DNA of 64,000 nt from Bactericera cockerelli (Eukaryota > Arthropoda > Insecta > Hemiptera > Triozidae): the NCBI GenBank assembly GCA_024516035.1, contig CM044965.1, positions 28,038,187 through 28,102,186 of the forward strand, read 5' to 3'. The first letter of the stretch is position 1. Every line of letters starts with the position of its first letter. The position numbers and the translations under genes were made by a program. Shown here one piece after another: positions 459-63,589 of the stretch. The notes under the pieces are model-generated. The model worked only from the letters and a program-made list of their open reading frames with translations, was not told where the DNA came from and did not search any database.

Positions 459-654
459 CTGAACAAGGTCTCTATGGTCCGCTTGAGCCGCCAGTCCGGT
501 CCCATCATGGTGAGGGCCGCCGCTATCTTGGTGTAGAGCACGCCCAGGGCCCAGCAGTGCCACACCCACAGCACGGGCGTCTGGTCCAGCGGCACCCGGA
601 AGGGCACCACGACGATCAGCTCCAGACAGAGGCCGAACAGAAGGGGGATCACGC
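459..654 (-). CDS. MARCHF6: MARCHF6 exon 12 (last exon present)
   Basis: 196 bp, phase 1 to 2. Encodes [30 protein letters not shown] and [19 protein letters not shown], matching the conserved VPLDQTP region. The donor is CAG|GTGAGT; the AATAAA-like tail of a dispersed element abuts the donor within about six bases. The remaining C-terminal exons lie outside the window. Confidence 0.95.
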
Positions 655-3600
655 CTGGGGGGGGGAAGAGTTTTTTTAATTGTTGAGCAGACATTGTTGC
701 CATTGATAGGAAAAAAGGCAAAGGACTAATTCTAGATCCTACTCTTCGATGGGAAACAAATTTAGAAGACCAAGACATCAAAATAAATGAAGAAAAACAA
801 GAAATATATGTTCCCACTGTCCCTTATTTTATTCTAAAGTATGAAATACCACGTTGGGAAGTGTTTGGTGTCTTTGGGTTTGGCGTTTCTCTTTCCTATA
901 AAGAGAGTTTCACTCACTGACTCACTGATTCATCACTGTTCATCCGAATGGTAAGTCTAGAAGCGATTTTTGTAGGTGCTTGGGTCCTATAGCTAGAGGC
1001 AATAAGACGGGACTTTTTGAATTCCCACTAACAACACCTGGCATTGGGCGAAAGATTTTTTGCTTTAACGAGCCATGCCTCGGCCGCACAGCGGCGACAG
1101 CCTCGTTACTATAATTCTGATTCTTCCACACCTAATCACTCTTACTCACTGATTCTATACTATCACCTTCTCCACTCACCACACCTGTCTCCACTCACCT
1201 ATCCCTCTCCCACTCACCTATATCACTCTCTCCACTCACCTATCACCTCTCTCCACTCACCTATCACCTGTCTCTCCACTCACCTATCACCTCTCTCACA
1301 TACTCTCACCTCTCTCCACTCACCTATCACCTCTCTCCACCTCATCACCCTCTTACTCTCACTCACCTATCACTCTCTCCACTCCTATCACCTCTCTCAC
1401 TCACCTATCACTCTCTCTCCACTCACCTATCACCTCTCTCCACTCACCTATCACCTCTCTCCACTCACCTATCACCTCTCTCCACTCACCTATCACCTCT
1501 CTCCACTCACTATCACCTCTCTCCACTCACCTATCACCTCTCTCCACTCACCACCTTCTCCACTCACCATACACCTCTCCACTCACCTATCCCTCTCTCC
1601 ACACTCACCTCACTACTCCCATCACTCTACTCACCTCTCTCCCACTACCTATCACCTCTCTCCACTCACCTATCACCTCTCTCCACTCACCATCACCTCT
1701 CTCACCACTCACCTACTCACCTCTCTCCACTACCTATCACCTCTCTCACACCTACACCTACTCCCATCACCTTCTCCACTCACCTATCACCTCTCCACAC
1801 CATCACCTCCACACCTATCTTCTCCACTCACCTATCCCACTCTCTTCCACTCACCTACCACCTCTCTCCACTCACCTATCACCGTCTCCACTCACCTATC
1901 ACCTCTCTCCACTCACCTATCGCCTCTCTCCACTCACCTATCACCTCTCTCCACTCACCCATCACCTTCTCCACTCACCTATCACCTCTCTCCACTCACC
2001 TATCACCTCTCTCCACTCACCTCTCTCCACTCACCTATCACCTGTCTCCACCACCTATCACCTCTCTCCACTCACCTATCGCCTCTCTCCACTCACCTAT
2101 CAACTCTCTCCACTCACCCATCACTCTCTCCACTCACCTATCACCTCTCTCCACTCACCTATCACCATTCTCCACTCACCTATCACCTCTCTCCACTCAC
2201 CTATCACCTCTCTCCACTCACCTATCACCTCTCTCCACTCACCTATCACCTCTCTCCATCACCTCTCTCCACTCACCTATCACCTCCACTCACCTCTCAC
2301 CTCTCTCCACTCACCTATCACCTTCACTCACCTATCACCTCTCTCCACTCACCTATCACCATTCTCCACTCACCTATCTCCTCTCTCCACTCATCTATCT
2401 CCTCTCTCCACTCACCTATCACCATTCTCCACTCACCTATCTCCTCTCTCCACTCATCTATCTCCTCTCTCCACTCATCTATCTCCTCTCTCCACTCACC
2501 TAACACCTCTCACCTATCTCCTCTCTCCACTCACCTATCACCTCTCTCCACTCACCTATCACCTCTCTCCACTCACCTATCACCTCTCTCCACTCACCTA
2601 TCACCTCTCTCCACTCACCTATCACCTCTCTCCACTCACCTATCACCTCTCTCCACTCACCTATCACCTTGTCTCCACTCACCTATCACCTCTCTCCACT
2701 CACCTATCACCTCTCTCCACTCACCTATCACCTCTCTCCACTCACCTCTCTCCACTCACCTATCACCTCTCTCCACTCACCTATCACCTCTCTCCACTCA
2801 CCTATCACCTCTCTCCACTCACCTATCACCTTGTCTCCACTCACCTATCACCTCTCTCCACTCACCTATCACCTCTCTCCACTCACCTATCACCTCTCTC
2901 CACTCACCTCTCTCCACTCACCTATCACCTCTCTCCACTCACCTATCACCTCTCTCCACTCACCTATCACCTCTCTCCACTCACCTCTCTCCACTCACCT
3001 ATCACCTCCACTCACCTCTCACCTCTCTCCACTCACCTATCACCTCCACTCACCTTTCACCTCTCTTCACTCACCCATCACCTGTCTCCACTCACCTATC
3101 ACCAGAGCCAGCACCACGAGCATCTTGCCAGCCAGCAGGGTCCAGGCAGCCAGCTTGTGCATCATCTGGGCGCGGCACAGGGGCAGCCACTGCCTGGCTG
3201 CGGCCACCACGCGGGCCGCGAGCCAGCACAGGTAGAGGCCGCAGGACAGGGTGTACAGCTCGTGTATGCCGGGGCCCGTGGGGAGGGGGCCGGGGGAGGG
3301 GGAGGAGGAGGAGGAGAGGGGAGAGGAGGAGGAGGGGGGCCGGGGCGGCACGGGGAGGGCGGGCCAGAACATCATGGCGCGGCGGCCTGTGAAGCAGAAG
3401 AGAGGGGGGGCGGGTGTGTGAATCAGAAGAGGGGGGGGAGATGTGTGAATCAGAAGAGGGAGAGGGGGGATGTGTGTCAAAAATATGTACCTCGTCTTTA
3501 AATAATGCAGCAACTAACTAAAAGACCAGTAGCCCGTTCCAGAAACATCCTCCGATCTCAAAATACCCCGAATCTCCGTTTCGAACGTCATACAACGCAC

Positions 3601-6600
3601 TCTGATGTGTTATTGCATTCTAATTAACCTATCAGAGTGCATTTTGTGACAGTTGAAGGGGAGATTATGAGAGTGGAGTGTGTTTCTGAAACGGGTTACA
3701 GGATCCCCCTGTGTGCAACACTTTGTCTCGCAACGTTGTGTAATATTTTAAATGGGAAATGTTGCGAAGTGTTGGATCTCATTTGATCCTAAAGGAAGCG
3801 TGGAGCATGAAAATGTTGCGATACAAAATGTTGCACACGATGAGATCCTGGCAAAGGAGATTTAAGGTAATTTTTTTATGCATTATGTGGTATTTCACAC
3901 ATACACCACTCCTACCATCAGTACATAAATTATATTAATAAAAGCTAGGGCGTGGATCTATAGAATGACCCACCTATTGCATGGACTTGTTTTCCTTTAT
4001 TCGTAGTATGTCGCCAAAAAAAAATACTTTTGAGCGAGCGATTTGCTCCGTCACAAGGTACTCTGTGACATGCGGAAGTCCCGGGATCGAAAAAAAAAGC
4101 TGTAAAAACACTCATCTTCAAAAAGAAAAATACTCACCTAGCCACACAGGTACAGTGAGGAGCACGAGGCTAGGAACTAGTGTAGATATTGTATCTAGTG
4201 AGATACTCACCTAGCCACACAGGTACAGTGAGGAGCACGAAGCTAGGAACTAGTGTATATTGTATCTAGTGAGATACTCACCTAGCCACACAGGTACAGT
4301 GAGGAGCACGAGGCTAGGAACTAGTGTATATTGTATCTAGTGAGATACTCACCTAGCCACACAGGTACAGTGAGGAGCACGAGGCTAGGAACTAGTGTAT
4401 ATTGTATCTAGTGAGATACTCACCTAGCCACACAGGTACAGTGAGGAGCACGAGGCTAGGAACTAGTGTATATTGTATCTAGTGAGATACTCACCTAGCC
4501 ACACAGGTACAGTGAGGAGCACGAGGCTAGGAACTAGTGTATATTGTATCTAGTGAGATACTCACCTAGCCACACAGGTACAGTGAGGAGCACGAGGCTA
4601 GGAACTAGTGTATATTGTATCTAGTGAGATACTCACCTAGCCACACAGGTACAGTGAGGAGCACGAAGCTAGGAACTAGTGTATATTGTATCTAGTGAGA
4701 TACTCACCTAGCCACACAGGTACAGTGAGGAGCACGAGGCTAGGAACTAGTGTATATTGTATCTGGTGAGATACTCACCTAGCCACACAGGTACAGTGAG
4801 GAGCACGAGGCTAGGAACTAGTGTATATTGTATCAAGTGAGATACTCACCTAGCCACACAGGTACAGTGAGGAGCACGAGGCTAGGAACTAGTGTATATT
4901 GTATCTAGTGAGATACTCACCTAGCCACACAGGTACAGTGAGGAGCACGAAGCTAGGAACTAGTGTATATTGTATCTGGTGAGATACTCACCTAGCCACA
5001 CAGGTACAGTGAGGAGCACGAGGCTAGGAACTAGTGTATATTGTATCTAGTGAGATACTCACCTAGCCACACAGGTACAGTGAGGAGCACGAGGCTAGGA
5101 ACTAGTGTATATTGTATCTAGTGAGATACTCACCTAGCCACACAGGTACAGTGAGGAGCACGAGGCTAGGAACTAGTGTATATTGTATCTAGTGAGATAC
5201 TCACCTAGCCACACAGGTACAGTGAGGAGCACGAAGCTAGGAACTAGTGTATATTGTATCTAGTGAGATACTCACCTAGCCACACAGGTACAGTGAGGAG
5301 CACGAGGCTAGGAACTAGTGTATATTGTATCTAGTGAGATACTCACCTAGCCACACAGGTACAGTGAGGAGCACGAGGCTAGGAACTAGTGTAGATATTG
5401 TATCTAGTGAGATACTCACCTAGCCACAGGTACAGTGAGATACTCACCTAGCCACACAGTACAGTGAGGAGCACGAGGCTAGGAACTAGTGTATATTGTA
5501 TCTAGTGAGATACTCACCTAGCCACACAGGTACAGTGAGGAGCACGAGGCTAGGAACTAGTGTATATTGTATCTAGTGAGATACTCACCTAGCCACACAG
5601 GTACAGTGAGGAGCACGAGGCTAGGAACTAGTGTATATTGTATCTAGTGAGATACTCACCTAGCCACACAGGTACAGTGAGGAGCACGAGGCTAGGAACT
5701 AGTGTATATTGTATCTAGTGAGATACTCACCTAGCCACACAGGTACAGTGAGGAGCACGAGGCTAGGAAATAGTGTAGATATTGTATCTAGTGAGATACT
5801 CACCTAGCCACACAGGTACAGTGAGGAGCACGAGGCTAGGAACTAGTGTATATTGTATCTAGTGAGATACTCACCTAGCCACACAGGTACAGTGAGGAGC
5901 ACGAGGCTAGGAAACTAGTGTATATTGTATCTAGTGAGATACTCACCTAGCCACACAGGTACAGTGAGGAGCACGAGGCTAGGAACTAGTGTATATTGTA
6001 TCTAGTGAGATACTCACCTAGCCACACAGGTACAGTGAGGAGCACGAGGCTAGGAAACTAGTGTATATTGTATCTAGTGAGATACTCACCTAGCCACACA
6101 GGTACAGTGAGGAGCACGAGGCTAGGAACTAGTGTGTATATTGTATCTAGTGAGATACTCACCTAGCCACACAGGTACAGTGAGGAGGAGCACGAGGCTA
6201 GGAACTAGTGTATATTGTATCTAGTGAGATACTCACCTAGCCACACAGGTACAGTGAGGAGCACGAAGCTAGGAACTAGTGTATATTGTATCTAGTGAGA
6301 TACTCACCTAGCCACACAGGTACAGTGAGGAGCACGAGGCTAGGAACTAGTGTATATTGTATCTAGTGAGATACTCACCTAGCCACACAGGTACAGTGAG
6401 GAGCACGAGGCTAGGAACTAGTGTATATTGTATCTAGTGAGATACTCACCTAGCCACACAGGTACAGTGAGGAGCACGAGGCTAGGAACTAGTGTATATT
6501 GTATCTGGTGAGATACTCACCTAGCCACACAGGTACAGTGAGGAGCACGAGGCTAGGAACTAGTGTATATTGTATCTGGTGAGATACTCACCTAGCCACA

Positions 6601-9600
6601 CAGGTACAGTGAGGAGCACGAGGCTAGGAACTAGTGTATATTGTATCTAGTGAGATACTCACCTAGCCACACAGGTACAGTGAGGAGCACGAGGCTAGGA
6701 ACTAGTGTATATTGTATCTGGTGAGATACTCACCTAGCCACACAGGTACAGTGAGGAGCACGAGGCTAGGAACTAGTGTATATTGTATCTAGTGAGATAC
6801 TCACCTAGCCACACAGGTACAGTGAGGAGCACGAGGCTAGGAACTAGTGTATATTGTATCTAGTGAGATACTCACCTAGCCACACAGGTACAGTGAGGAG
6901 CACGAGGCTAGGAACTAGTGTATATTGTATCGTGGATACTCACCTAGCCACCCGGTACAGTGAGGAGCACAGGCTAGAACTATGTATATTGTATCTTGAG
7001 ATACTCACCTACCACACAGGTACGTGAGGAGCACGAGGCTAGGAACTAGTGTATATTGTATTAGTGAGATACTCACCACCACACAGGTCAGTGAGGAGCA
7101 GAAGGTATTGTATTAGTGAGATATCACCTAGCACATACTGAGAGCACAGTAGGAACTAGTTATATTGTATCTGTGAATACCACCGCACAGGTACAGGAGG
7201 AGCACGGGCTAGAACTGTAATTGCAGTAAACCACTCCCACGTACATGCACACTAAATTATGTATCTAGTACCCCAGCACAGGACAGAGGACCGGTGGAAT
7301 GGTAATTGATTGTGAGAACACTCCAGAAGGAGGAGCACGAGGTAGAACTAGTGTAATTGTATCTGTGAGATACCACCAGCACAAGGACAGTAGGAACAGG
7401 TGGAACTAGTGAATATCTAAACCACTACAAGGCAGAGGCAGGACTATGATATTGTATATGGTATCAAGTACAGCACAGGACAGTGAGAAAGCTGTGAATT
7501 CTACAAGTACACGCACAGGCAGTGGTATGTCTAGGAATTCACTACACAGGAAGCACAGCCAGGTAGACTAGGTATTGTACTAGTGAGTACTCACTAGACA
7601 CAGTACATGAGAGCCAGCAGGAATAGTGATAGTACTAGGAATATACTAGCACCAGGAATCTGAGAGCACAGGCTAGGAACTAGGTATTGTATTAGTGTAT
7701 CATAGCACACAGACGGAGAGGACAGGGACTAGGTATATGTATCTGTAGTACTCACTAGCCACCAGTACAGTGAGGAGCACGAGGCTAGGAACTAGTGTAT
7801 TTATTGTGGATCTACTGCACACAGGTACAGTAGGACACGAGTAGGACAGTGATATTGTACTAGTGAATTCATAGACCACACAGGTACAGTGGGAGAGGAA
7901 GTATAAGTCTAGGTATTGTATCCTATGCAATACAGTAGACCAGACTAGGAACAGTATTGAACTAGATTGTACTACTAGACCACACAGCACAGAGGACGAG
8001 GAGGAAGTAATTATCTAGTGAGATATACTAGCACAAGTACGTGGAGCACAGCTAGGAACTAGTAATTGATCTAGTGAGATATATGACTAGTGAGGAGCAC
8101 AGCAACAGGTATAGTATCAGTGGTATACTAGCACCAGGTACAGTGAGAGCACGAGGCTAGGAACTAGGTATATGGAACTAGTGACTACTAAGTACTAGAG
8201 CACAGGCTAGGAAAGTGTATATGTATCTAGTGAATTCACTAGCAACGACAGGACACAGGCAGGAATAGTGAATGTAACTAGGTAATTACCTAAGTAGGAC
8301 ACGAGGACACGGACTAGGAAGTAACTAGAGTATACTACAGGTACTGACACCCCAGGAATAGGTCAGAGCTAGGAGTATATCTAGGAGAACGACAGGACAG
8401 GCTAGGAACAGGTAGACTAGGATATACTAGTAGGTACGTGACACACTAGATACAGGTACAGTGAGGAGCACGAGCTAGGAACTGTGATATGTACGTGAGT
8501 ACTCACTAGCACAGGTACAGTGAGGAGCCGAGGCTAGGAACTAGTGTATATGTATCTAGTGAGTACTCACTAGCCACACGTACGTGAGGAGCACGAAGGT
8601 AGGAATAGTGTATATTGTATCAGTGAGATACTCACCTAGCAACAGGTACAGTGAGGACACGAGGCTAGGAACTAGTGTATATTGTATCTAGTGAGATACT
8701 CACTAGCCACACAGGTACAGTGAGGAGCACGAGCTAGGAACTAGTGTATATTGTACGGAGATACTACCTAGCCACACGGTACAGTAGGAGCACGAGTAGG
8801 AATAGTGAATGTATTAGTGAGATATACTGCACAGGTACAGTGAGGAGCACGAGCTAGGAATAGTGTAATTGTATCTGTGATATACTAGCCACAAGTACAG
8901 TGGGAGCCGAGCTAGACTGTGTATATTGTATTAGTGAGATACTACTAGCCACACAGGTACAGTGAGGAGCACGAGCTAGAATAGTGTATATTGTATCTAG
9001 TGAGATACTCACTAGGTCAGTGAGGAGCACGAGGCTAGAACTGTGTATATTGTATTGTGAGATATACTAGCCACACAGGTACAGTGAGAGCACGAGGCTA
9101 GGAACTAGTGTATATTGTATTAGTGAGATACTCACCTAGCCACACAGGTACAGGAGGAGCACGAGGCAGGAACTATGTATATTGTATCTGTGAGTACTCA
9201 CCTAGCCACACAGGTACAGTGAGGAGCACGAGTAGGAATAGTGTATATTGTTTAGTGAGATACTCACCTGCCAACAGGTACGTGAGGCACGAGCTAGGAA
9301 TAGTGTATATGTATCTGTGAGTACTCACTAGCACGGTACGTGAGGAGCCGAGGTAGAACTTGTATATTGTACTAGTGAGATACTCACCTAGCCACCAGGT
9401 ACGTGAGGAGCACGAGCTAGGAATAGTGTATTGTATCTAGTGAGATACTCACTAGCACACAGGTACGTGAGGAGCACGAGGCTAGGAATGTGTATATTGT
9501 ATCTGTGAGATATCACCAGCCACACAGGTACAGTGAGGAGACGAGGCTAGGAACTAGTGTATATTGTCTAGTGAGAACTCACCTAGCCACACAGGTACAG

Positions 9601-12600
9601 TGAGGAGCCGAGGCTAGAACAGTGTAATTGTATTAGTGAGATATCACCTAGCCACAGGTACAGTGAGGAGCACGAGGCTAGGAACTAGTGTATATTGTAT
9701 CTAGTGAGATACTCACCTAGCACACAGGTACAGTGAGGAGCACGAGGCTAGGATAGGTATATTGTATTAGTGAGATACTCACCTAGCCACACAGGTACAG
9801 TGAGGAGCACGAGCTAGGAATAGTGTATATTGTATCTGTGAGATACTCACCTAGCACAAGGTACAGGAGGGCCGAGGTAGGAACTAGTGTATATTGTATC
9901 TGTGAGATACTCACTAGCACACAGGTACAGTGAGGAGCACGAGGCTAGGATAGTGTATATTGTTCTAGTGAGATACTCACTAGCCACACAGGTACAGTGA
10001 GGGCACGGTGGAACAGTGAATGTATTAGGAGCCATAGCCAAAGTAAGGGGGACGAGCTGGAACTAGTGTATATTTACATGGTATCACGCCCAGTCGTGAG
10101 GGCGGGAGTGTGTTTGTATCTGGATCTCACCTGCACAGGTACATAAGCACGAGCTGGAATGTTATATTGTATTGGAATATCACTCCACAGTACAGTAACA
10201 CGACTAGATAGTTATATGATTAGGAGCTACTGCCGGACGTGGAGCCAGCTAGGAAGATTGATCAGTGAACTACCGGTCATGAGGGCGAGTAGAAGTGTAA
10301 TTTACTGTGGATATACTGCCAGAAGTGGGACCAGGTGAATGTGTTTGTATTGTAATCTACACAAGTAAGTGGAGCACATAGACTGTTATTTATCAGGCAC
10401 CTACCAATAATAGCACAGGCTGAAGGATGTATCGTGATACACACACACGGTACATAGGGCACGAGCTGAACTGTTATATTATTGTGAGTATCTCACAAGG
10501 AGTGAGACCAGGAGACTGTTATTGTATCTTGGTCACTAGCACCAGTATGACAGCTAGACGAGTACAGTGAGGAGCACGAGCTAGGAACAGTGTATATGTA
10601 TCAGTGAATATCACTAGCCACACAGTACTGAGGAGCACGAGCTAGGAACTAGGTATATGTATCTAGTGAATACTCACCTACCACAGTACAGGAGGAGCAC
10701 GAGGCTAGAACTAGTGTATATTTATCTAGTGAGATACTCACCTACCACACAGTACAGTGAGGACACGAGGCTAGGAACTATGTATATTGTATCTAGTGAG
10801 TACTCACCTAGCCACACAGGTACAGTGAGGAGCACGAGGCTAGGAATAGTGTATATTGTATCTAGTGAGATACCACTAGCACAGGTACAGTGAGGAGCAC
10901 GAGGCTAGGAACTAGTGTATATTGTATCTAGTGAGATACTCACCTAGCCACACAGGTACAGTGAGGAGCACGAAGGCTAGGAACTAGTGTATATTGTATC
11001 TAGTGAGATACTCACCTAGCCACACAGGTACAGTGAGGAGCACGAGGCTAGGAACTAGTGTATATTGTATCTAGTGAGATACTCACCTAGCCACACAGGT
11101 ACAGTGAGGAGCACGAGGCTAGGAACTAGTGTATATTGTATCTAGTGAGATACTCACCTAGCCACACAGGTACAGTGAGGAGCACGAGGCTAGGAACTAG
11201 TGTATATTGTATCTAGTGAGATACTCACCTAGCCACACAGGTACAGTGAGGAGCACGAGGCTAGGAACTAGTGTATATTGTATCTAGTGAGATACTCACC
11301 TAGCCACACAGGTACAGTGAGGAGCACGAGGCTAGGAACTAGTGTATATTGTATCTAGTGAGATACTCACCTAGCCACACAGGTACAGTGAGGAGCACGA
11401 GGCTAGGAAAATAGTGTATATTGTATCTAGTGAGATACTCACCTAGCCACACAGGTACAGTGAGGAGCACGAGGCTAGGAACTAGTGTATATTGTATCTA
11501 GTGAGATACTCACCTAGCCACACAGGTACAGTGAGGAGCACGAGGCTAGGAACTAGTGTATATTGTATCTAGTGAGATACTCACCTAGCCACACAGGTAC
11601 AGTGAGGAGCACGAGGCTAGGAACTAGTGTATATTGTATCTAGTGAGATACTCACCTAGCCACACAGGTACAGTGAGGAGCACGAGGCTAGGAACTAGTG
11701 TATATTGTATCTAGTGAGATACTCACCTAGCCACACAGGTACAGTGAGGAGCACGAGGCTAGGAACTAGGGGTATATTGTATCTAGTGAGATACTCACCT
11801 AGCCACACAGGTACAGTGAGGAGCACGAGCTAGGAACTAGTGTATATTGTATCTAGGAGATACTCACCTAGCCACACAGGTACAGTGAGGAGCACGAAGG
11901 CTAGGAACTATGTGTATTTTCGGGGACCTGCTAGTGAGGCGATTTACTCCCTAGCCACACAGGTACAGTGAGAGCACGAGGCTAGGAATAGTGTATATTG
12001 TATCTAGTGAGATACTCACCTAGCACACAGGTACAGTGAGGAGCACGAGGCTAGGAACTAGTGTATATTGTATCTAGTGAGATACTCACCTAGCCACACA
12101 GGTACAGTGAGGAGCACGAGGCTAGGAACTAGTGTATATTGTATCTAGTGAGATACTCACCTAGCCACACAGGTACAGTGAGGAGCACGAGGCTAGGAAC
12201 TAGTGTATATTGTATCTAGTGAGATACTCACCTAGCCACACAGGTACAGTGAGGAGCACGAGGCTGGACACGACCAGGGACACACACACGAGTCCCAGGA
12301 GGCCGGCAATGCGGGCCAGGAAGTAGGAGGGCCGGCTGTAGGGCTGGAACCCGGTGGGGCCCCCAATCTGCAGCATGGCCTGATGGGCGGCCCCCAGGTC
12401 GTTGCCCAGGGGCGGGAAGTTGTTGGCTTCTTGTCGGACCTGATGCTGGGGCGACTCTGTGTCATCCCCTGGAATCAAAAGGTAATAATCATCCCCTGGA
12501 ATGTAAAGGTAATAATCATCCCCTGGAATGCAAAGGTAATAATCATCCCCTGGAATCAAAAGGTAATAAGTCAAACCGACATCAGTCGCTTCATCGATAA

Positions 12601-15600
12601 GGCGGCGGACTTGTAACCTGGAAGTCGGTGGATCAAGTTCCAAGTCAGGTAAAAATTCAAAGCGACATCAGTAGCTTAATCGATAAGGCGGCGGACTTAT
12701 AACCTGGAAGTCGGTGGATCAAGTTCCAAGTCAGGTAAAAATTTAGCCGTGTGAGTTTAAGTAATTGTGACAATATGAGAGTGATTAACAAAGGTAAGAT
12801 AACTTTCTTTTTTTTAAATTAGTAAATAAAAAGGTTTCTTTGTATTACCACAATTTTAGTGGGCAGCTCAGTTTCATATGACTTTCTCAAATCTTTAATC
12901 AAGGCGGCGTCGCTCCGTCGAGAAGGTTTTTCTCATAATTTCTCCAACACCAAAACAGAGACCCGTAAATAAGAAAGGCAAGTAAGCAATATACATAATA
13001 GGTCTCTCTTCTTTTTTTTCTTTTACTTTGCCTTTTTCCCAACCCACTGGCGGTCGGCACTGTTCAATCTTTTTCTAATCGTTGTGGTTTTTTGGTTTGA
13101 GTACTTCTACTTCTAAATTTTACGGATGGAGTGGCCTTCCTAACTTCAACTAGAGCCAGGGGTATTTCAGAAGTCATGATCGAGACAAAATAAATTTTGT
13201 ATGCCATAATTATCTTGCTATAAACAATTGATTTTATATTTTTTTTACCATATTTGACATGTTATTGAGAATAACATGTCAAATATGGTTAAAAACATGC
13301 AGAAACACTTAAATCTAAGTGTATTTTTTAGTAAATTCTAAGCAGGTTTAAGTTAAGCTCACCCAACAGATAGGACTTGATGTTGAGGAAGTAGGACACC
13401 ACACGGCACCACACCCGAATCACATTCTTGAGCCACACTCGCGTCTGACTCTGCTCCAGTATGGCGGGCAGAACAACCTGGGGAGTAGAGTATAGTATAT
13501 TTATTAGTTTATAAGACATTGAAGAATGTATAAAACATTGTCACCCTATCTAACTTATGACTAAAAAAAAGGAATGGACAGAATGTATTTTTGTGATATA
13601 TATTATGATGACTGTGGCGCGTAAGTGTGATATGTGGAGGTGTGGGTGTGTGTACATGGATGTGTTTGGTATGTGTGGTATGGTTAGTATGTAATGTTCT
13701 CTAGGTCTTTGAATTTGTATGGTGTTATTTTTACGATATTTTCAGTTCAGGGGGAGGAGAGAATTGATCAATCTTAGCGAGGTCTACAGTTCACACAACC
13801 ACTCTTGTAAGTTATCATATTTGTGTTAATTACTTTTATGAACCACTATTGCAAGTTATCATAATTGTGTTAATTAGTTTTATGAACCACTATTGGGGTT
13901 CGGTGGAAGAGAAAGCCACAGGCTTTAACCTCGCCCCTTGGTTCACTACATATTCTATTGTGTTCTTTTTCTTCATGTTTTATTTGGTAAATTTATGTAG
14001 TTGACCAATAAAGTGTTATATAATAATAATAATAAGTTACCATAATTGTGTTAACTACTTTTATGAACCACTATTGTAAGTTATCGTATTTGTGTTAATA
14101 CTTTTATGAACCACTATTGTAAGCTATCATATTTGTGTTAATTTCTTTTATGAACCACTATTGTAAGTTATCATATTTGTGTTAATTATTTTTATGAACC
14201 ACTATTGTAAGTTATCATATTTGTGTTAATTACATTTATGAACCACCATTGTAAGTTATCATATTTGTGTTAATTACATTTATGAACCACTATTGTAAGT
14301 TATCATATTTGTGTTAATTACATTTATGAACCACTATTGTAAGTTATCATAGTTGTGTTAATTACTTTTATGAAACACTATTGTAAGTTATCACATTTGT
14401 GTTAATTACTTTTATGAACCACTATTGTAAGTTATCATATTTGTGTTAATTACATTTATGAACCACTATTGTAAGTTATCATATTTGTGTTAATTACATT
14501 TATGAACCACTATTGTAAGTTATCATATTTGTGTTAATTACTTTTGTGATGTCACAATTACTCTAACTAACGCTGCTAAATTTTCACCGAACTTGAGACT
14601 CGATGGTAGTGTAGCGTGCGCCGTGATCGCCGTGTCATACTAAGTGCAGTACTATTATCTTTGCATGTTTGTTAAATGAACTTCTCACTTTCACATTTAT
14701 CTACATTGTAATAAGTACCCAAACCAAATTGTTATCATTTAATCTTAATCTGAAACAAAATCTGTATACAAATATATTTCTAAATCAATCTAAACAGTGC
14801 CTTCTCATTCCAACTCACTACCCTCTACAAAGTGGTGACCCCGACCTGAACAACAGCCCCAGCAACCAGCCAACCTCCAGCAGCTCCCAGCCCTAGCCAA
14901 GCAGTTCCTGGCCCTTACCAAGCTTCAACCATGCCTGAGGAGAAGAACCTCACAGAGCTCGCAACTCACGCAGACAACATCGCAGAAGCTACTCGCCCAT
15001 TCGTGCCCCAAGTCTCAGAAACTTCAATACCAAGGGCTGATGACATACTTACCCTCAAATTCAACCAACTTGCCGCCATCTTCAGTCAAGAAATTGCCAG
15101 TCTCCGTCAAGAAGTTGCATCACTACGATTTAACCATCAGAGCAGAAGTCAATCCCCAGCCCGTGACAGATACCAGAGCCGTTCCCAGTTCCGAGGCCGC
15201 AGCAGTTCCAGGCCACGCACAGACACTTGCTGGTACCACTGGCGCTTCGGACCCCAAGCAAAGAAATGTGAGCAGCCATGCAAGTTTCAGGGAAACGCCA
15301 CGGACCGCTGATCATGACGGCTTCTCAGTCGAGTCCTACGCCCCGCCGTCTCTTCGTCACAGAGCATTCAACCAAGTTGCAGTTCCTCATTGACACTGGC
15401 GCCGACTTATGCGTTTTCCCACGTTCTGCAGCACCTGGTAGACGTGAGAAGACCGACTACATCCTGTCCGCAGCCAATTCCACGGACATCAACACCTACG
15501 GCACCATCACCTTGTCACTGAACTTTGGACTCCGGCGCGACTTCACCTGGCGGTTCGTAGTAGCAGATGTTTCGAAGCCAATCATCGGCGCAGATTTCCT

Positions 15601-18600
15601 CCACCATTTTAATTTGCTAGTGGACCTACGGAACCACAGACTACTTGATGGGACCACTCACCTCACTGCCCAAGGACATGTTGCTGAATCCAATATCCCG
15701 TCAGTCAAGACAGTCTCCGAAGCCTCTCCGTACCACCAGCTCCTCCAGCAGTTCAAGGACATCACACGCCCCGATGGTACTCCAGGCATCATCCGTCACA
15801 ACACTAAGCACTTCATTGAGACAACTCCCGGTCCTCCAGTTGCCAGCAAACCAAGGCGTCTCGCACCAGCCAAGCTCAAGGCCGCCAAGAAGGAGTTCGA
15901 CGCAATGTTACAACTAGGCATTGCTCGACCTTCCAACAGTCCATGGTCTGCACCCCTCCACATGGTCGAGAAGCCGCAAGCCGACACCTGGCGACCCTGC
16001 GGAGACTATCGAGGACTCAATGCCCGCACCATTCCAGATCAGTATCCGGTGAGACATATACAAGACTTCGCCCACATTCTCCAAGGCAAAACAATCTTCA
16101 CCACATTAGACCTCGTCCGAGCCTACAATCAGATCCCAGTAGCCGAGGAAGACATCTGCAAGACTGCAATCACCACCCCATTTGGCCTGTTTGAGTTCCC
16201 CTACATGTCATTTGGCCTATGCAACGCAGCCCAGACATTCCAACGCTTCATGGATGAAGTTCTTCGAGGCTTAGACTCCTGTTTCCCCTACATCGACGAT
16301 GTCCTCGTAGCTTCCAACTCAGAGGAAGAACACCTGGCACACCTCTCAATCATCTTCAAGCGATTCCAAGACCACTCTCTTGTCCTGAATCCCAGCAAAT
16401 GTGTGTTTGGCCAGCAACAAGTCCGATTCCTAGGATACTTCATTTCCAAGGATGGGACAAGCCCGCTTCCCGACAGAGTCAAGGATATCCTGCAGTTCCC
16501 GCGACCAACTACAGCCAAAGGTGTACGACAATTCATGGGGATGCTCAACTTCTACCGCCGCTTCATACCCAGAGCATCCCACACCTTCGCACCAGTCAAC
16601 GATCTCCTGACTGACAACATCAAAGGCAAGGCAGAGATTCAATGGACGCCCGAAGCAATCAAATCATTCGATCAGTGCAAAGAGCGACTCGCAGCAGCCA
16701 CCCTCCTCGCTCACCCTCTCGATAATGCCCCACTCTCGCTTGTCACGGACGCCTCTGACACCGCAGTAGGCGCAACACTTCAACAACTGGTCAACAGTGA
16801 ATGGCAGCCACTCGGTTTCTTCTCCAAGAAACTTTCCAGTGCCGAGCAGAAGTACGGTGCCTATGACCGTGAGCTCCTCGCCATCTATCTTGCTGTCAAA
16901 AACTTCCGACACATGGTAGAAGGACGCCAATTCACCATCTTCACGGACCACAAGCCGCTCACCTTCGCTTTCTGCCAAAAGCCAGACAAATGCTCGCCTC
17001 GCCAGTTCCGCCACCTAGACCTTATCTCACAGTACACCACCGACATCCAGTACGTCCCAGGCGATCAAAACGTCGTAGCTGATGCCCTGTCAAGGATAGA
17101 GCTCATCCATGCGACTCTCGACTACAAGTCCCTAGCAGCCTCACAGAAAACTGATGTCGAACTACAAGCAGCACTCAAAAGAACCGACTCCACACTTCAA
17201 CTCAAACTACTAGAGATCCCCGGTTCCGGTGTCAAGCTCTACTGTGATGTGTCCACACCAACTGCAAGGCCCTACATCACCCGACCTTTCCGACGCACTG
17301 TGTTCAACATGGTACACCAGCTATCGCACCCCGGCACTAACACTACAGTCAAACTCGCACAGCAGAGATTCGTTTGGCCCTTCATTTCCAAGGACTGCCG
17401 CAGCTGGACCCAAGCCTGCACTGATTGCCAACGATCCAAGGTCACTCGCCACGTCAAGGCCCCACTCGGTTCCTTCTCTCCACCAACGCAGAGATTCGAA
17501 CATGTGCACATGGACCTCATCATCATGCCACACTCAGACGGATTCCGGTACTGTCTTACTATGGTTGATCGCTTCACACGATGGCCAGAAGTGATCCCGC
17601 TCCCAGACCAAGAAGCCTCCACCGTCGCCAAGGCGTTCTACACTCACTGGATCGCACGGTTCGGCACTCCACTCCGCATCACCACCGACCAAGGCAGACA
17701 GTTCGAGTCCAACCTGTTCAAAGAGCTCAGCACACTCACCGGCTCACAGCACCTCCGCACCACGGCATATCATCCTGCAGCCAATGGAATGATCGAGCGA
17801 CTCCACAGACAGCTTAAGGCCGCAATCAAATGCCACCACAACGACCGCTGGACAGACATCCTCCCTACTGTCCTACTTGGAATCCGAGCAGCATGGCGAG
17901 ACGATCTCAAGGCATCCAGCGCAGAACTCGTCTACGGTGAACCACTCAGACTTCCCGGCGAGTTCCTCACATCCAAGACAGATGATCCAGACCCCACAAC
18001 AGAGTTCGTCAAAGATCTTCGCAGCCACATGCGCCAGCTCCAACCAGTCAGCGGAACACAGCACGGTGACAAGTCCCACTTCATATTCAAGGACCTCTAC
18101 ACCGCAGACCAAGTTTTCATCCGCCGAGAGTTTTCCAAACGCTGCCTCCAGATGCCATACGACGGACCTTACCCAGTCGTCAGGAGAAGTTCCCGAACGT
18201 TCGTGATTGACATCAATGGAAAATACACCACAGTCACCATTGATCGACTGAAGCCAGCCTACACCATGACCGACACTGCCGACCCACCACAGCACCAGGC
18301 AGATTGCACCAGCCGCAGCCCCCCGCTTCAACCAACCAGTATAACGACACGATCCGGCCGCAGAGTCCACTTCCCCAAGAGATTCCAGAACTAATCCCCA
18401 CACCGATGAATCGTGATTACATCACTGGCAGGGGAGTGTGTAGCGTGCGCCGTGATCGCCGTGTCATACTAAGTGCAGTACTATGATCTTTGCATGTTTG
18501 TTAAATGAACTTCTCACTTTCACATTTATCTACATTGTAATAAGTACCCAAACCAAATTGTTATCATTTAATCTTAATCTGAAACAAAATCTGTATACAA

Positions 18601-21168
18601 ATATATTTCTAAATCAATCTAAACAGTGCCTTCTCATTCCAACTCACTACCCTCTACAGTAGAATCTCTATTATTAGTGAACTAAACGCGTTTTTTATAG
18701 GAACATTTTTTTGTTGTTGAATAGTTCAAATATTTTTGTACATTTTAAGAATTTCATAATTATTGACCTATTGATCTGGGACTCAGCAGTCACCCTGTAG
18801 ATCACTCACCTGTAGCAGCAGTAACTCGAGGGAGAGTTCATTGATCTGGGACTCAGCAGTCACCCTGTGCATCACTCACCTGTAGCAGCAGTAACTCGAG
18901 GGAGAGTTCATTGATCTGGGACTCAGCAGACACCCTGTAGATCACTCACCTGTAGCAGCAGTAACTCGAGGGAGAGTTCATTGATCTGGGACTCAGCAGA
19001 CACCCTGTAGATCACTCACCTGTAGCAGCAGTAACTCGAGGGAGAGTTCATTGATCTGGTACTCAGCAGACACCCTGTAGATCACTCACCTGTAGCAGCA
19101 GTAACTCGAGGGAGAGTTCATTGATCTGGGACCCAGCAGTCACCCTGTAGATCACTCACCTGTAGCAGCAGTAACTCGAGGGAGAGTTCATTGATCTGGG
19201 ACTCGGCAGTCACCCTGTAGATCACTCCACTCACCTGTAGCAGCAGTAACTCGAGGGAGAGTTCATTGATCTGGGACTCAGCAGTCACCCTGTAGATCAC
19301 TCACTCACCTGTAGCAGCAGTAACTCGAGGGAGAGTTCATTGATCTGGGACTCGGCTGTGAGGGTCACCCTGTAGGGCAGGAAGGAGGGCATGAGGGCGT
19401 GGATGAGGCGGATGGGGAGCCACAGCATCAGCAGGACCACGGTACCGAAGATGATGCCCGAGACTATGAGGCGCCGGATGTGGCGCAGCACGGGCAGGTA
19501 GATCATCTCCTGGAGGTGAGAGTAAACAAATAGCTGTTACACTTGTTACCATGGTAACTCATTAAAGTAATGGAACCTGTTGCTATGGTAACACATTATA
19601 CAAGGGCAGATGTAGCACGAGAGTAAACAAATTCTTGTTACACTTGTTAGCATGGTAACTCACTACAGTAATAGAACCTGTTGCTATGGTAACACATTAT
19701 ACAAGGCGACGGATGTGACGCAGCACGGGCAGGTAGATCATCTCCTGGAGTTGAGAGTAAACAAATAGTTGTTACACTTGTTACCATGGTAACTCACTAA
19801 AGTAATGGAACCTGTTGCTATGGTAACACATTATACAAGGCGACGGATGTGGCGCAGCACGGGCAGGTAGATCATCTCCTGGAGTTGAGCGTAAACAAAT
19901 AGCTGTTACACTTGTTACCATGGTAACTCATTAAAGTAATGGAACCTGTTGCTATGGTAACACATTATACAAGGGCAGATGTAGCACGAGAGTAAACAAA
20001 TTCTTGTTACACTTGTTAGCATGGTAACTCACTACAGTAATAGAACCTGTTGCTATGGTAACACATTATACAAGGCGACGGATGTGACGCAGCACGGGCA
20101 GGTAGATCATCTCCTGGAGTTGAGAGTAAACAAATAGTTGTTACACTTGTTACCATGGTAACTCACTAAAGTAATGGAACCTGTTGCTATGGTAACACAT
20201 TATACAAGGCGACGGATGTGACGCAGCACGGGCAGGTAGATCATCTCCTGGAGTTGAGAGTAAACAAATAGTTGTTACACTTGTTACCATGGTAACTCAC
20301 TACAGTAATGGAACCTGTTGCTATGGTAACACATTATACAAGGCGACGGATGTGACGCAGCACGGGCAGGTAGATCATCTCCTGGAGGTGAGCGTAAACA
20401 AATAGTTGTTACCATGGTAACTCACTACAGTAATGGAACCTGTTGCTATGGTAACACATTATACAAGGCGACGGATGTGACGCAGCACGGGCAGGTAGAT
20501 CATCTCCTGGAGTTGAGAGTAAACAAATAGTTGTTACACTTGTTACCATGGTAACTCACTACAGTAATGGAACCTGTTGCTATGGTAACACATTATACAA
20601 GGCGACGGATGTGACGCAGCACGGGCAGGTAGATCATCTCCTAGAGGTGAGAGTAAACAAATAGTTGTTACACTTGTTACCATGGTAACTCACTACAGTA
20701 ATAGAACCTGTTGCTATGGTAACACATTATACAAGGCGACGGATGTGATGCAGCACGGGCAGGTAGATCATCTCCTGGAGTTGAGCGTAAACAAATAGTT
20801 GTTACACTTGTTACCATGGTAACTCACTACAGTGATAGAACCTGTTGCTATGGTAACACTAATACTAGGGCAGATGTAGCACGAGAGTAAACAAATTTTT
20901 GTTACACTTGTTACCATGGTAACTCACTGTAGTAAACAAATTGTTGTTACCATGGTAACTCACTAAAGTAATGGAACCTGTTGCTATGGTAATACTGATA
21001 CAAGGCGACGCATGAGACGCATTACGGCAGATGTAGCACGACAGTAAACAAATTCTTGTTACCATGGTAACTCACTAAAGTAATGGAACCTGTTGCTATG
21101 GTAACACATTATACAAGGCGACGGATGTGATGCAGCACGGGCAGGTAGTAAACAAATAGTTGTTACTC

Positions 21169-21200
<32 letters not shown>

Positions 21201-23210
21201 AGTAATGGACATAACATCATTTAGAACTTTAATACTTTAAAGTAATCCAAACGACAATACTAATGTCCTAACAAGGCATACAAACTAAAGATTATAAACA
21301 ATACAGACTTAACTTTAACATTTTTATACAGACATTCTCTGCTCACATTCCAGCCGGAACAGATCACCAGAGAGATTATAGTGATCATGGTCCAGCTGAA
21401 GTGTGTTGCAGAGTGTCATACTTATTTTTCTAATCAACTTGATTCTCTACGTTTTAACTGTGATATTTTACTTGTCTTCTTAAATTTTCTTATTTGTATT
21501 AATTTTATATTGTTCTAGGTAATCAATGTACATTGGGCTTGACCCGTCAATAAAGAATAAATTAAATTAAAATTAAATTGAGTAAGAGCTATTTGTGTTA
21601 TTATATAAATTTCATGAAGTGGTGTGAATGACCATAGAAGTTGACATGCACCACTATAACCTAATAAAAGATAGATAGATACAAATTTCATGGCTAAGAA
21701 ATGAAAAAAAATGTGAAAAAACTCATTTATAAAAGAATAACAATAAAAAAAAATCGCTAGCAAAAATCTATGTTTCATCATCATAGGGTAGCGTCATCGT
21801 GAACGATGGTAGCCAGACAGTGGAGGAATGTTTCAGCACTTCTACCACTGTTTTTACAAGGAGGCTAATAATTGACAAGGGCCCCCAGAACCAAGCCAAT
21901 GCTGGTCTACTCCCTGTTTATAGTCCCCCAGCCAGACTGCTGGTCCACTCCCTGTTTATAGTCCCCCAGCCAGACTGTGTGTTTATTTGATCTATGTTTA
22001 TAGAATCTATGTTTATTTGACGCCAAAGTTCTGACTTTAGAAAGAAAAAAAAAAAAAAAAAAAAAAAAAAAAACGGGAGAAACAACTGACCTGAATGGGG
22101 CTGAAGTCCGGATCGTTGAGGTTCCTGAGGAACCAGAGCACGCCAGGCCTGAGCACCTCCCGCAGCAGAAGGATGAAGGACGCGAAGTAGTACACGTAGA
22201 TCATGCCCAGCAGCCAGTGGATGAACATGCAGGTGCCCGGGGCCGACCTCAGACTCAGGAGTCGATCCTTGAGGGTCGCCTCGAACATGGAGAGCGAGCA
22301 GAGGTCGAGCCACCAGCCGCAGATCAGCGGGAGCACGCCGATCTCGATCACGCAGAGGAGGGACACCTGTGTTGCCACGGAAACGAACGGAACATTAGAT
22401 AAGAGACACTTGTTGCCATGGAAACGAACAGGACATTAGATAAGAGACACCTGTTGCCATGGAAACGAACGGAACGTTAGATAAGAGACACCTGTTACCA
22501 TGGAAACCAACGGAACATTAGATAAGAGACACATGTTGCCATGGAAACGAACGGAACATTACATAAGAAACAACTGTAACCATAGAAACGAACGGAACAT
22601 TAGTAGTATGATTAGTTGATTACTTTACCGATTAAAGGGACTCTTTAGTCCCATTCTTGCAGGATAAACAAAGTGTTGTATTGTATTCTTTGTGGTGAAG
22701 AACAAGGCCTCTTTTAAAAAATCTGGTGTAAACATCACACGACTTTCCTTATCCCCCAAAAAGGAGTCGAATTCCGCCACTGGTGACTCAACGGTAACAG
22801 ATAACTAAAAACTAATGCCAAATTCGTAATCAGCACTTCAAAATCATTGAATTTGATATGTCACAACCCCCATGTAGGATGAATAATAAAAAAGTTAGTC
22901 AAAGCGGGTCCCCCCCAAATACCGGTAAATTGGGGCCGAGTTCCAAAAAGTTCAAGATATCAAAAAAATGATCAGAATAGACCCCTATTATTTTTTTAAT
23001 CTAAGAAAATGTTGTTCCCTAAAAATTTTTGTGTCTTTAACCAATTTAAAGAAGCGGCGCTTGCGGCTAGCATTTGCGGCCCTGTGGCCGCAGAATGCGG
23101 CCGATTTCAACCAAAAGTTTCGTGGTTCGTCTGGTGTATAAAATTAATTTGTGTACCAAATTTCAAGTCTCTAGCTTTTACCGTTCTTGAGATATCCTGT
23201 TCACACACAC

Positions 23211-23264
<54 letters not shown>

Positions 23265-26200
23265 GCACGGACCAATGGCTGAAAACAACTTTTTTGGTAT
23301 CCTGAGGCCATGATTCGTCCAGAAATGTGAAAAACTGGGTAGGTCAAATTTTCGACGAATACAATACTTTCCTTATTATAAGATAAGGAAAGTAAAAAAT
23401 TCTGTGTAGAAATGATAGGAATATTAGATAAAAGAAACATGTTTTATTTCATTATTTTATTTTAATTGTTTACCTTGACCACGATGTAGCAGAGACCCAG
23501 CACTCGTCTGGACTTGGCTAGGTTGAAGAAGGAGGCGAGGGAATGCAGAATAACTAGAGTGAGGCCTACCAGAACGTAGCCGCACAGTGTTGTCAGGAGT
23601 CCTGCAATATAATAATAATTATAATGAATAAAATCCGACCTCTGTAGCTGGATCGATATGGTGGCAGACTTGTGACCTGGAAATGAATGGTTTAAGTTCC
23701 AAGTTCAGCAAATATCTAGTAAAGCAGAGTTTGAGTAATTGTAACATCACTATTGTGATGATTAACACAAAAATGATATAAAAAAATATATAAATATATA
23801 AAAAAATCTGGTGTAAACATCACACGACTTTCCTTATCCTATTAGGAATGGGAAAAGGACCTAAAGCCACTGGTGACTCAACGGTAATAGTTAACAAAAA
23901 AAACTAATGTCAAATTCGTAATAAGCACCTCAAAGTCATTGGATTTGATATGTCACAACCCTCATCTACTAAATAAAAAAAAGTTGGTCTAAATACCGGG
24001 ATCCTCAAAAATACCGGTAAATTGGAGTCGAGTTCCAAAAAGTTCAACATTTCTAAAAAATGATCGAGTAAACCCCTATAATTCTAAGAAAATGTTGTTC
24101 TATAACTCAGTATTAAGATTAACCTGCTCTAGTCTACTCTACTCTACCCTAACAGACTAGTCTATTACCTTCAAACTTGGACGCGCTCACATAGTGTTTC
24201 AGAGTGGCTAGACTTAGCATGAACCTGCCCATGTGATAGGGACAGAAAGCAAACACCAGGATGAACAGAGTGTTGAGGCTGACCACCCAGAAGACATGCT
24301 CCAGAAACACCAGGGATCCGTCAAGCCCTGGAACACATAACACACTTGAGTCTAATATAATGCAGTGAGCTGTGAATAATAAGAACGTCCTGTTTTTGAG
24401 TTATTCAGAAATCGAACCCCCATCCCCCCAGCTACTCACCCAGTAGTCTCCCAGGTGAGAAACCTCATCCCCCAGGCTACTCACCCAGCAGTCTCCCAGG
24501 TGAGAACCCCCATCCCCCAGCTACTCACCCAGTAGTCTCCCAGGTGAGAACCCCCATCCCCCAGCTACTCACCCAGTAGTCTCCCAGGTGAGAACCCCCA
24601 TCCCCCAGCTACTCACCCAGCAGTCTCCCAGGTGAGAACCCCCATCCCCCAGGCTACTCACCCAGCAGTCTCCCAGGTGAGAAGCCCCATCCCCCAGGCT
24701 ACTCACCCAGCAGTCTCCTAGGTGAGAACCCCCAGCTACTCACCCAGCAGTCTCCCAGGTGAGAACCCCCATCCCCCAGGCTACTCACCCAGCAGTCTCC
24801 CAGGTGAGAACCCCCATCCCCCCGGCTACTCACCCAGCAGTCTCCTAGGTGAGAACCCCCAGCTACTCACCCAGTAGTCTCCCAGGTGAGAACCCCCAGC
24901 TACTCACCCAGCAGTCTCATAGGTGAGAACCCCCAGCTACTCACCCAGCAGTCTCCCAGGTGAGAACCCCCATCCCCCAGGCTACTCACCCAGCAGTCTC
25001 CCAGGTGAGAACCCCCAGCTACTCACCCAGCAGTCTCATAGGTGAGAACCCCCAGCTACTCACCCAGCAGTCTCCCAGGTGAGAACCCCCATCCCCCAGG
25101 CTACTCACCCAGCAGTCTCCCAGGTGACAACCCCCATCCCCCAGGCTACTCACCCAGCAGTCTCCCAGGTGAGAACCCCCAGCTACTCACCCAGCAGTCT
25201 CATAGGTGAGAACCCCCAGCTACTCACCCAGCAGTCTCCCAGGTGAGAACCCCCATCCCCCAGGCTACTCACCCAGCAGTCTCCCAGGTGAGAACCCCCG
25301 CTACTCACCCAGCAGTCTCCCAGGTGAGTACCCCCAGGCTACTCACCCAGCAGTCTCCCAGGTGAGAACCCCCCACCCCCAGGCTACTCACCCAGCAGCC
25401 TCTTCTATGTGAGAACCCCCAGCTACTCACCCAGCAGTCTCCCAGGTGAGAACCCCCAGCTACTCACCCAGCAGCCTCTTCTATGTGAGAACCCACGGCT
25501 ACTCACCCAACAGTCTCTCCCACGTCAGCTCCTCTGCGGCCCGGTCCCACTCTATCGGGTTCCAGTTGTTCTCCAGATTGGCTCCACCCCCTCCCCCTCC
25601 TCCCCCTCCATCCCCTCCAGGCGGGCCTCGGGGGGGCGGGGCAGCGGGTCATTGGCCCCGCCCACCCGGTTCAGATTAGGCCCGCCCTCGTTGTTCATGG
25701 CCTGGAAATGGGGTAATTTTATGTTAGTTTCTTATTCTAAACTAACATAAAATTTAAATACTATTTTTAATCACCTAAACTTTAAATACTATTTTTAATA
25801 TATTCATAAAAATTGATGAACATTTTTAATTTTTTGTTTATTTTTTATTGTTCTTTCATTTTGTTTTATTTTGATAAAATGTTTGTTGATTATAATAATA
25901 CAAATAAAGTACCTCGAAAAAAAAAAATCTATTTTGAAAATAAAACATTTGTTTTTCTCCTAAGATTTTATATTTACTTAATATGGCACATTGAAAACAA
26001 CAATTTTTGTCACTGAAGTTAATCAACGTGCAGCAAGATTACAACTTGGATGGGGACTATTCAAATTCAAACCCTTGTGTTGTTGGCTATTACCAGCCCC
26101 ACTCAGGCTAGGTGAAGTTAATGAGGGTGGATGGCTTATGAGTGTAGGTAAAGCAAATGGATGGTAAAACTGCTGTCTTGTATGAACTAGATGTTAAAGA

Positions 26201-28035: not shown

Positions 28036-28066
<31 letters not shown>

Positions 28067-28479: not shown

Positions 28480-29889
28480 CTGAAAGAACAAACAAATTGA
28501 TCAAAATTTAAAATTTAAAACAAATTAATTAATTAAAAATCAAAATAAAACAATGATTTAATGAATAATTTTATTAAGACAATCAATTGATAATTTTCAG
28601 TGTGCACATAAGTAAACTGTGGGCAGGTATAATTGACAGATTACTGTAGCATGCCAAAAGTAAATATTATTTATGCAGAACAACTACAAGCTCAAAAGTA
28701 CCAAAAATCCAAACTTTAATTTCTTTGATCTTCTTTTGAGTATTTCTTTGAAAATAACTAAATAAGGCATTCCAAATGTTCATTAAACTAGAAAGACAAG
28801 GAAAACAGTTTCAAGCAAGCACATGATACATGAAGTAAACGGAAAAATGGCCGTGTCCATATAGCTGAAAGATTGGTCTCAAGTTTGCAGTAATATTAGT
28901 AAGTGAAATAACAAGTCAGTATGACATAAGGATGAACTTGAAACACTACCTATTTATTATAATTAATTGAAAGTATACAGAGATGGTCTTCTAGGAAACA
29001 CCCTAGAAAATAGAGTTGTCCAACATCCTAAAGCAACTGTTTCAATCACAACCATTGGCAGCAACTATGCAGTCACCATGATTCTACTTTTTACTCTCAT
29101 ACAATTTGAATATAAACAATTATATACTTCCAAATAATGGTACATTTCTTTTTGAGAGCAAGCACTATCTATGTACTTTTCAAAAGTACCTAATCAGCTA
29201 AGGTTGTTGTGCATGGTATTGATAAGGCTTACCTGAGAATGCAAAGGTATGCTCTCTGCTCTGGAACAGATTTTAAGGAGGGTGTGATAAAAAAAACACT
29301 GCTACACTAGCTCATCATTTCAAGGGAGTTTTCCAGATATAAAATGAAAATTGATGATTGATGTTGAACCTAGATAAGATCCAATTTAAAACAATTTGAA
29401 TGAAAAGTTAAGGAAGTTTGCAAATTGCAAAAAAAGACCCTGATTTCTGATTCCAAATCTAAAATGCTTTATCAGGTGTTTTTTGTTGATGTTATGAAAT
29501 GAGTGTCCTTGACCATGGAGGAATAAGTAATGGAGAACTCGTAATGCCTCTAACCTGTCACGTAAACAAACTGATAACAGCTATCTAATATGGCTATCAT
29601 TATTACCTTCAAAATGGAGATAAGGGGTATTTCTTGTATGAATCAAAGTAATCCATCGAATATAGATTTATTTTGGAAAAATAACGTGTTTTGAAACTTC
29701 GAATCAAGTTGATACAAAAGGAATCGACTCAATGCAAGTTTTGACTTATTGGTTTTCTTAAGGGAAACAGAAGAATCTTATTTTTGTCCTAAAGTGAATC
29801 AAAAGAATCCACATTCGATGGATTCTGTTGAGTGAAGACTAAAATATACCTCTATAATAATTATAATTATTTGAGATAAGCATAAAAAA

Positions 29890-29985
29890 AAATTCCTGCC
29901 CCGCTGGGAATCGAACCCAGGTCACCATGCGTACAATGCCTAGCGCGCTAACTCACTCTGCCACGGAGACTACTGATATGACCAT
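29890..29985 (-). mobile_element. tRNA-derived SINE (family 1)
   Basis: The minus strand carries GAGTTAGCGCGCTAGGCATT and the B box GGGTTCGATTCCC. The same family occurs at 38615, 42265, 46092 (plus) and 58340-58490 (minus). Confidence 0.7.

Positions 29986-34649: not shown

Positions 34650-63589
<28,940 letters not shown>

Follow-up and report, generated by a model that had tools for sequence, protein, structure and literature searches.

Tandem repeats with units that lie across an exon-intron boundary are known from the globin genes of the lancelet Branchiostoma as "mirages" (PMC3087553). Repeats in lancelet PGBD5 have been compared with mirages in a report that cites Adh and troponin C (PMC3902484), and mirages of Adh3 and troponin C are referred to here as cited in these two papers. 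These accounts describe boundary-spanning, site-specific units at 5' and 3' junctions with duplication of the AG/GT signals, features that the arrays described below share. Normal splicing and length instability are also reported for lancelet mirages. The present arrays differ from those of lancelets in their occurrence in an insect, in the involvement of 13 of 41 junctions in two genes, in array lengths of up to about 8 kb, and in a link to donors that read GTRAGT.

In the AGGT model of intron gain, as set out in PMC3443670 and PMC4974935, a segment with a splice-like AGGT is duplicated, as it is here, but the two copies form the ends of the new intron, whereas the copies in these arrays accumulate at a single end of an intron that is already there. 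Introner-like elements resemble the arrays in being intron-associated repeated DNA (PMC4457414). The C. elegans CeRep25B repeats near alternative exons are also intronic tandem repeats with a possible effect on splicing but, unlike the present arrays, are not described as junction-derived in the available part of the source (PMC4039745). Among the matches listed in the open literature, none described such arrays from psyllids or other insects, which does not establish that no such report exists. The dense insect set and the link to consensus donors look new, and the kind of repeat is itself known from lancelets. If the pattern were genome-wide, it would represent a second, distant animal lineage with repeat birth concentrated at splice junctions, and would favour a mutational process linked to junctions, or else a filter linked to splicing, over a lancelet oddity. 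Insects with sequenced relatives would then allow tests of intron growth and of how dozens of decoy sites are tolerated, and the pattern could help to explain DNA duplication at splice sites.

The stretch of DNA that was analysed, referred to as the window, consists of 64,000 nucleotides from Bactericera cockerelli (assembly GCA_024516035.1, contig CM044965.1, positions 28,038,187 to 28,102,186). Twelve exons were mapped for a minus-strand gene (459 to 28479) for MARCHF6, a Doa10/TEB4-type E3 ligase, the 3' end of which lies beyond the window. Beyond a frame break ~18 codons into the first of them, nine of these exons (25701 to 459) share a single open frame, and the preceding exon (26766 to 26497) is in frame up to the break. 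The two furthest-upstream mapped exons (28355 to 28479 and 27341 to 27596) also have frame breaks. Among the 120 matches listed out of 1714, the closest were proteins of Cacopsylla melanoneura and Diaphorina citri, with 85.5 to 85.6% identity over aligned residues. Viral and prokaryotic contigs searched with MARCHF6 yielded no other psyllid DNA. Nine exons were mapped for a plus-strand gene (40009 to 63589) of the KRAP/ITPRID type (olf186-M-like, ITPR-interacting). This gene contains the Pfam domain PF14722 (KRAP/IP3R-binding domain; E value, 1.3e-8) and matches insect olf186-M-like proteins, including psyllid ones; its frame is broken by the join of the exon ending at 53700 to that starting at 55236. 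The protein matches point to a psyllid as the most likely source, probably one other than the species matched. Likely extra plus-strand exons of the same gene were recognised, by reading only, at about 34.6 to 36.26 kb and 36.7 to 37.1 kb.

Splice signals in the sequence together with protein alignment with homologues defined the junctions, and 41 of them (21 donors and 20 acceptors) were obtained from 20 exons mapped in full and from the donor at 40099. An exon with an acceptor at 49345, beside a (TC)n tract (about 460 bp; 48866 to 49325) in an intron of the KRAP gene, was considered and dropped, as homologues link the exon ending at 44572 straight to 51277. The TC tract was therefore left uncounted.

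Arrays were present at 13 of the 41 junctions. Both kinds of boundary were affected, with arrays at 8 of 21 donors (5') and at 5 of 20 acceptors (3'). They are likely to be mirage-type minisatellites, in which junction-spanning segments underwent tandem duplication independently at each site, followed by expansion within the intron. Ten of the 13 include both coding bases (3 to 45) and the splice site, at donors 3096, 12232, 19309, 25507, 40099, 51484, 53700, and 55384 and at acceptors 12468 and 19509. The remaining three lie at acceptors 3386, 22366, and 44299, from which they are separated by 1, 3, and 5 intronic bases, respectively. An earlier note on this DNA had placed arrays at exon-intron boundaries, at about 13 of some 45 junctions. 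Tandem Repeats Finder (TRF) located the arrays where the note had put them, with exon edges re-derived from the sequence and compared with homologues; the figure of 13 stands, and the number of junctions is 41.

The arrays were located by TRF, which returned 87 rows over the window, and the copy numbers are approximate because the assembly is indel-noisy. In MARCHF6, on the minus strand, a 21-bp array of ~96 copies (1160 to 3103) contains the last 8 coding bases before donor 3096 plus GTGAGT. An array of ~3 copies of a 27- to 29-bp unit (3388 to 3476) ends next to acceptor 3386. The largest array, with ~124 copies of a 71-bp unit over 8.1 kb (4130 to 12265), includes 34 coding bases at donor 12232, and four copies of a 27-bp unit (12462 to 12569) include 7 coding bases at acceptor 12468. 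At donor 19309, ~8 copies of a 70-bp unit (18770 to 19353) include 45 coding bases. The array at acceptor 19509 has units of 101 and 134 bp (19469 to 21148) with 41 coding bases; the exact acceptor-plus-exon 17-mer is present eight times, counting the real one. Next to acceptor 22366 are 5.7 copies of a 41-bp unit (22370 to 22603) that appear, by eye, to contain a degraded version of the acceptor plus the first coding bases. Donor 25507 has ~27 copies of a unit of ~45 bp (24414 to 25517) with 11 coding bases, and GTGAGT is intact in all of them. Of these arrays, those at donors 3096, 12232, 19309, and 25507 and at acceptors 12468 and 19509 were also found with k-mers.

In the KRAP/ITPRID gene, on the plus strand, both TRF and k-mers revealed ~21 copies of a unit of ~55 bp with 17 coding bases at donor 40099 (40083 to 41149), 29 copies of a 45-bp unit with 38 coding bases at donor 51484 (51447 to 52735), and ~35 copies of a 57-bp unit with 40 coding bases at donor 55384 (55345 to 57386). 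Two further arrays were found by TRF. Six copies of a 32-bp unit (44102 to 44293) precede acceptor 44299, and a 21-bp family (53698 to 54960) with 3 coding bases begins at donor 53700. This array, at 53.7 kb, proved on correction to be one family that extends to about 54960 and is broken by insertions: a MITE-like insert (53734 to 54124, with 24-bp inverted ends) and a second stretch (about 54253 to 54790).

The main exception to the association with junctions is a 44-bp array (13797 to 14549) that contains no splice site and adjoins an LTR element in a MARCHF6 intron. This element (about 14560 to 18760), which we take to be of the Ty3/gypsy type, encodes protease, RT, RNase H, and integrase domains in a frame from 15272 to 18394. 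A separate RT fragment lies on the minus strand at 50343 to 51245.

An independent k-mer check gave a similar picture. A 24-base junction sequence recurred, with ≤5 mismatches and within 9 kb, at 9 of the 10 junction-including arrays; by the same measure it was not found at 53700, where the array has just 3 coding bases. Among the array-free junctions only 44572 recurred, with one extra match. The k-mer and mechanical TRF counts used 42 junctions, including the later-rejected acceptor at 49345, which caught no array. When all noncoding TRF clusters with a period of at least 10 were considered, the numbers at a junction were 13 of 30 at a score of at least 50 (leaving 17 of 30 elsewhere), 12 of 20 at 100, 11 of 17 at 150, and 10 of 13 at 300. 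The non-junction clusters at the highest threshold were the 44-bp array, a cluster at 12561 to 12743 that touches a junction array, and one at 36764 to 37025 that reads like coding sequence. Other tandem repeats with a coding look lie inside mapped exons (59401 to 59471 and 61357 to 61560); that at 36764 to 37025 was recognised by reading only.

In order to compare the positions of the arrays with chance, a list of 17 intronic arrays was compiled, in which two 44-bp clusters were merged into one, as were three 21-bp pieces between 53.7 and 54.96 kb. TRF clusters with a score of <100 (the 53.7-kb family excepted), microsatellites, and coding repeats were omitted, as was the region between 28.5 and 40 kb, which lacks an established gene structure. 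Four of the 17 (at 12570, 13797, 21900, and 54504) are away from junctions. The 17 arrays, inserts inside the 53.7-kb family included, cover 20,493 of 45,280 intronic bases. Base-by-base overlap would therefore be misleading, and each array was collapsed to one unit. The null was how often a randomly seeded unit, in uniform or GC-matched windows, spans or touches a junction.

With uniform seeding, 1.47 arrays were expected at junctions compared with the 13 of 17 observed (P = 1.5e-11, a post hoc value for a window picked as striking). The 10 junction-including arrays alone compared with 1.25 expected (P = 3.7e-8). When full-length arrays were placed at random in their own introns, the mean was 2.4 and none of 200,000 trials reached 13; this placement used an earlier list of 19 arrays, with the 53.7-kb pieces separate and an intron near 49345 that has since been revised. 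All of these P values cover one window and two genes chosen for their unusual look and are not genome-wide values.

Base composition might account for part of this excess. In AT-rich introns, exon edges could simply be the nearest GC-rich place that tolerates duplication, so that a bias toward GC-rich seeds would place arrays at junctions. The GC content of exons was 55.1% versus 34.5% in array-free introns, and that of the junction units was 0.42 to 0.64 in 12 of 13 and 0.37 in one. GC matching raised the expected number of junction arrays from 1.5 to 2.43 when GC was within 5% and to 3.96 when it was at least that of the array, but the observed 13 still exceeded both (P = 3.5e-9 and 1.7e-6, respectively, both post hoc). 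For the junction-including arrays the expectations were 2.23 and 3.81 (P = 4.3e-6 and 6.7e-4). Furthermore, GC bias leaves the lack of arrays at the non-GTRAGT donors (0 of 8) unexplained. Thus, it seems unlikely that GC-rich seeding is the only cause. Within the window, the excess at junctions survived uniform, same-intron, and GC-matched nulls.

Each of the eight donors with an array has the sequence GTGAGT or GTAAGT. Arrays were present at 8 of 13 GTRAGT donors and at none of the 8 other donors (P = 0.007, for a contrast noticed after the fact). Elsewhere in introns, counting both strands, GTRAGT was present at 34 array-free sites and in two non-donor arrays, which contrasts with the 8 of 13 donors (P = 1.0e-4). 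A comparison based on 0 of 34 cryptic sites (P = 4e-6) was set aside, as sites within arrays had been excluded and the result was partly true by construction. Other motifs gave weaker contrasts between donors and cryptic sites (AGGTRAG, P = 0.09; AGGTGAGT, P = 0.33; AGGT, P = 5e-4). It seems that neither the GTRAGT hexamer alone nor an exon edge alone is sufficient in this sample. The direction of the link is not proven because homogenisation could later make donors more consensus.

For the mirage-type process favoured here, the first duplication would arise at exon edges more than elsewhere in introns, with seeding perhaps tied to GTRAGT donors, for example, through transcription- or U1-coupled pausing or R-loops. 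The copies may then have been expanded and homogenised by unequal exchange or slippage. Replication or repair stress, the cause suggested in the earlier note, is no more than a conceivable trigger. A broader speculation, which we offer tentatively and consider doubtful, is that strong 5' splice sites are mutagenic: when a consensus donor is recognised in the course of transcription, U1 binding, pausing of the polymerase, or the edge of an R-loop might promote tandem duplication. Junctions would then be hotspots for the birth of minisatellites in certain lineages of animals, with psyllids and lancelets affected independently.

Over seven donor arrays the GT was intact in 316 of 340 copies, with the real copies counted. 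It is conceivable that the pattern reflects retention and not mutation, with duplications occurring everywhere and splice-site copies being kept as spare sites that buffer or regulate splicing. The intact GTs and the occurrence of donor arrays at consensus donors only are consistent with this idea. However, when positions of the unit were ranked by substitutions, the donor window ranked 7/21, 13/71, 41/70, 4/43, 3/55, 27/45, and 42/57 in the seven arrays; with ranks so mixed, decoy donors were not clearly better kept than the rest of the unit, and selection on them was rejected. In addition, a stop codon lies 1 to 29 nt past the real donor at 8 of 8 array-bearing donors, and the use of most decoys would therefore give an early stop. 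Retention of spare sites is therefore a quite improbable explanation.

There are exceptions to the early stop. The first decoy at donor 3096 adds 21 in-frame bases ahead of the stop, and at donor 19309 an overlapping site lies 4 bases downstream. The decoy acceptors of the four-copy array at 12468 leave the frame open, adding nine-residue repeats without a stop, and, judged from the sequence, it is possible that this array is a source of variable protein isoforms. Possible in-frame insertions at 3096 and 12468 aside, the arrays probably have no function of their own.

Under exon definition, splice sites are paired across the exon and the copy nearest to it is selected. Tolerance of the minisatellites could be explained if the spliceosome, by such pairing over the real exon, takes the exon-proximal copy, and most decoy donors, if used, would add an early stop that leads to RNA decay. 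The earlier proposal that the arrays are tolerated as only intron length changes fits this anatomy and the early stop that follows all eight array-bearing donors. The arrays at donors 3096 and 12232, each with about 80 full GTRAGT copies behind a single exon, provide a natural test of exon definition.

Comparison with other insects suggests the order of events. All nine of the aligned MARCHF6 boundaries have flanking residues that can be recognised in both psyllid proteins, and eight of the nine have them in four other insects as well, the exception being a boundary without an array. In the KRAP gene, three of the five array junctions (44299, 51484, and 53700) were well supported by homology; the exon end at 40099 was weakly supported, by a few residues of Diaphorina P0135, and that at 55384 by eye only, against Cyamophila P0004. 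Exon ends are thus conserved in other insects at most sites, and the coding part of the arrays there is therefore old exon sequence, with the exons having come first. This conservation also lends indirect support to normal mRNA despite the decoy sites. The reverse order, in which arrays existed first and splice sites moved into them later by exonisation, would account for the overlap of exon ends and arrays but not for the matches of the coding side to residues of other insects at the MARCHF6 boundaries and at three of the five KRAP array junctions, and its probability is close to negligible.

Introners have sequence in common between introns. Unlike introner-like elements, the 17 array units gave no cross match at E ≤ 0.01, and unit lengths at junctions ranged from 21 to 134 bp. 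Separate events are therefore likely, as had been claimed in the description of the arrays as recurring junction events, and one spreading repeat or introner was rejected. As to an escape of array-edge copies from homogenisation, a feature of mirages, the substitution rate of the exon-proximal unit was higher than that of interior units in four of seven arrays and zero in three.

The arrays had also been proposed to show intron birth in action, through intron gain by tandem duplication of AGGT segments. The units do hold exonic sequence plus a donor or acceptor, and a similar route was proposed by the authors of the lancelet globin study (PMC3087553). However, none of 19 introns had ends that looked like copies of one duplicated segment; 8 to 17 of 40 registered positions were identical between the ends, a comparison with no shuffled control. 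As the two ends do not look like copies of one segment in 19 of 19 introns, and none of the pairs is near-identical, the gain model is unsupported. The exon ends, moreover, are mostly old and conserved at the protein level. Intron gain is an extremely unlikely account of these arrays, and the claim of intron birth is not supported.

Coding-exon frame breaks were found in both genes (27341 to 28479, 25507 to 25701, 44299 to 44572, 58550 to 58779, and 59377 to 59562), several of them at homopolymers, pointing to an unpolished long-read assembly. In the 71-bp array at donor 12232, identity to the unit fell to 0.65 to 0.72 in the bins at 7.0 to 8.5 kb and 10.0 kb, versus about 0.99 at both ends, and this deletion-rich middle is probably assembly noise. 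Array lengths are therefore estimates. These flaws would be expected if the arrays were mis-assembled repeats or the genes decayed copies. However, nine MARCHF6 exons share one open frame after the break in the first, with 86% identity to psyllid orthologues, and assembly error would have no reason to follow splice sites. An artefact or a pair of dead genes is thus very unlikely.

A shared DNA hairpin was considered and rejected. Nine units were folded and had no common fold; eight had z-scores of -3.2 to +0.9, with three below -2. The arrays at acceptors 19509 and 22366, either side of one MARCHF6 exon, share a 14-base palindromic motif, which qualifies the separate origin of their units. The sequence GTTRCYATGGNAAC has 24 matches at 19545 to 21105 in the first array and 4 at 22412 to 22548 in the second, and is reminiscent of the RFX X-box. 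In the KRAP gene, donor 58779 opens a short GTA repeat (GTAGTAGTAGTAGTA), a small repeat that begins exactly at the junction. A minus-strand Rfam match resembling 5S rRNA lies at 41521 to 41642 (65 bits) and is perhaps a 5S-derived SINE, and a weak tRNA match (30.3 bits) was detected at 47353 to 47434.
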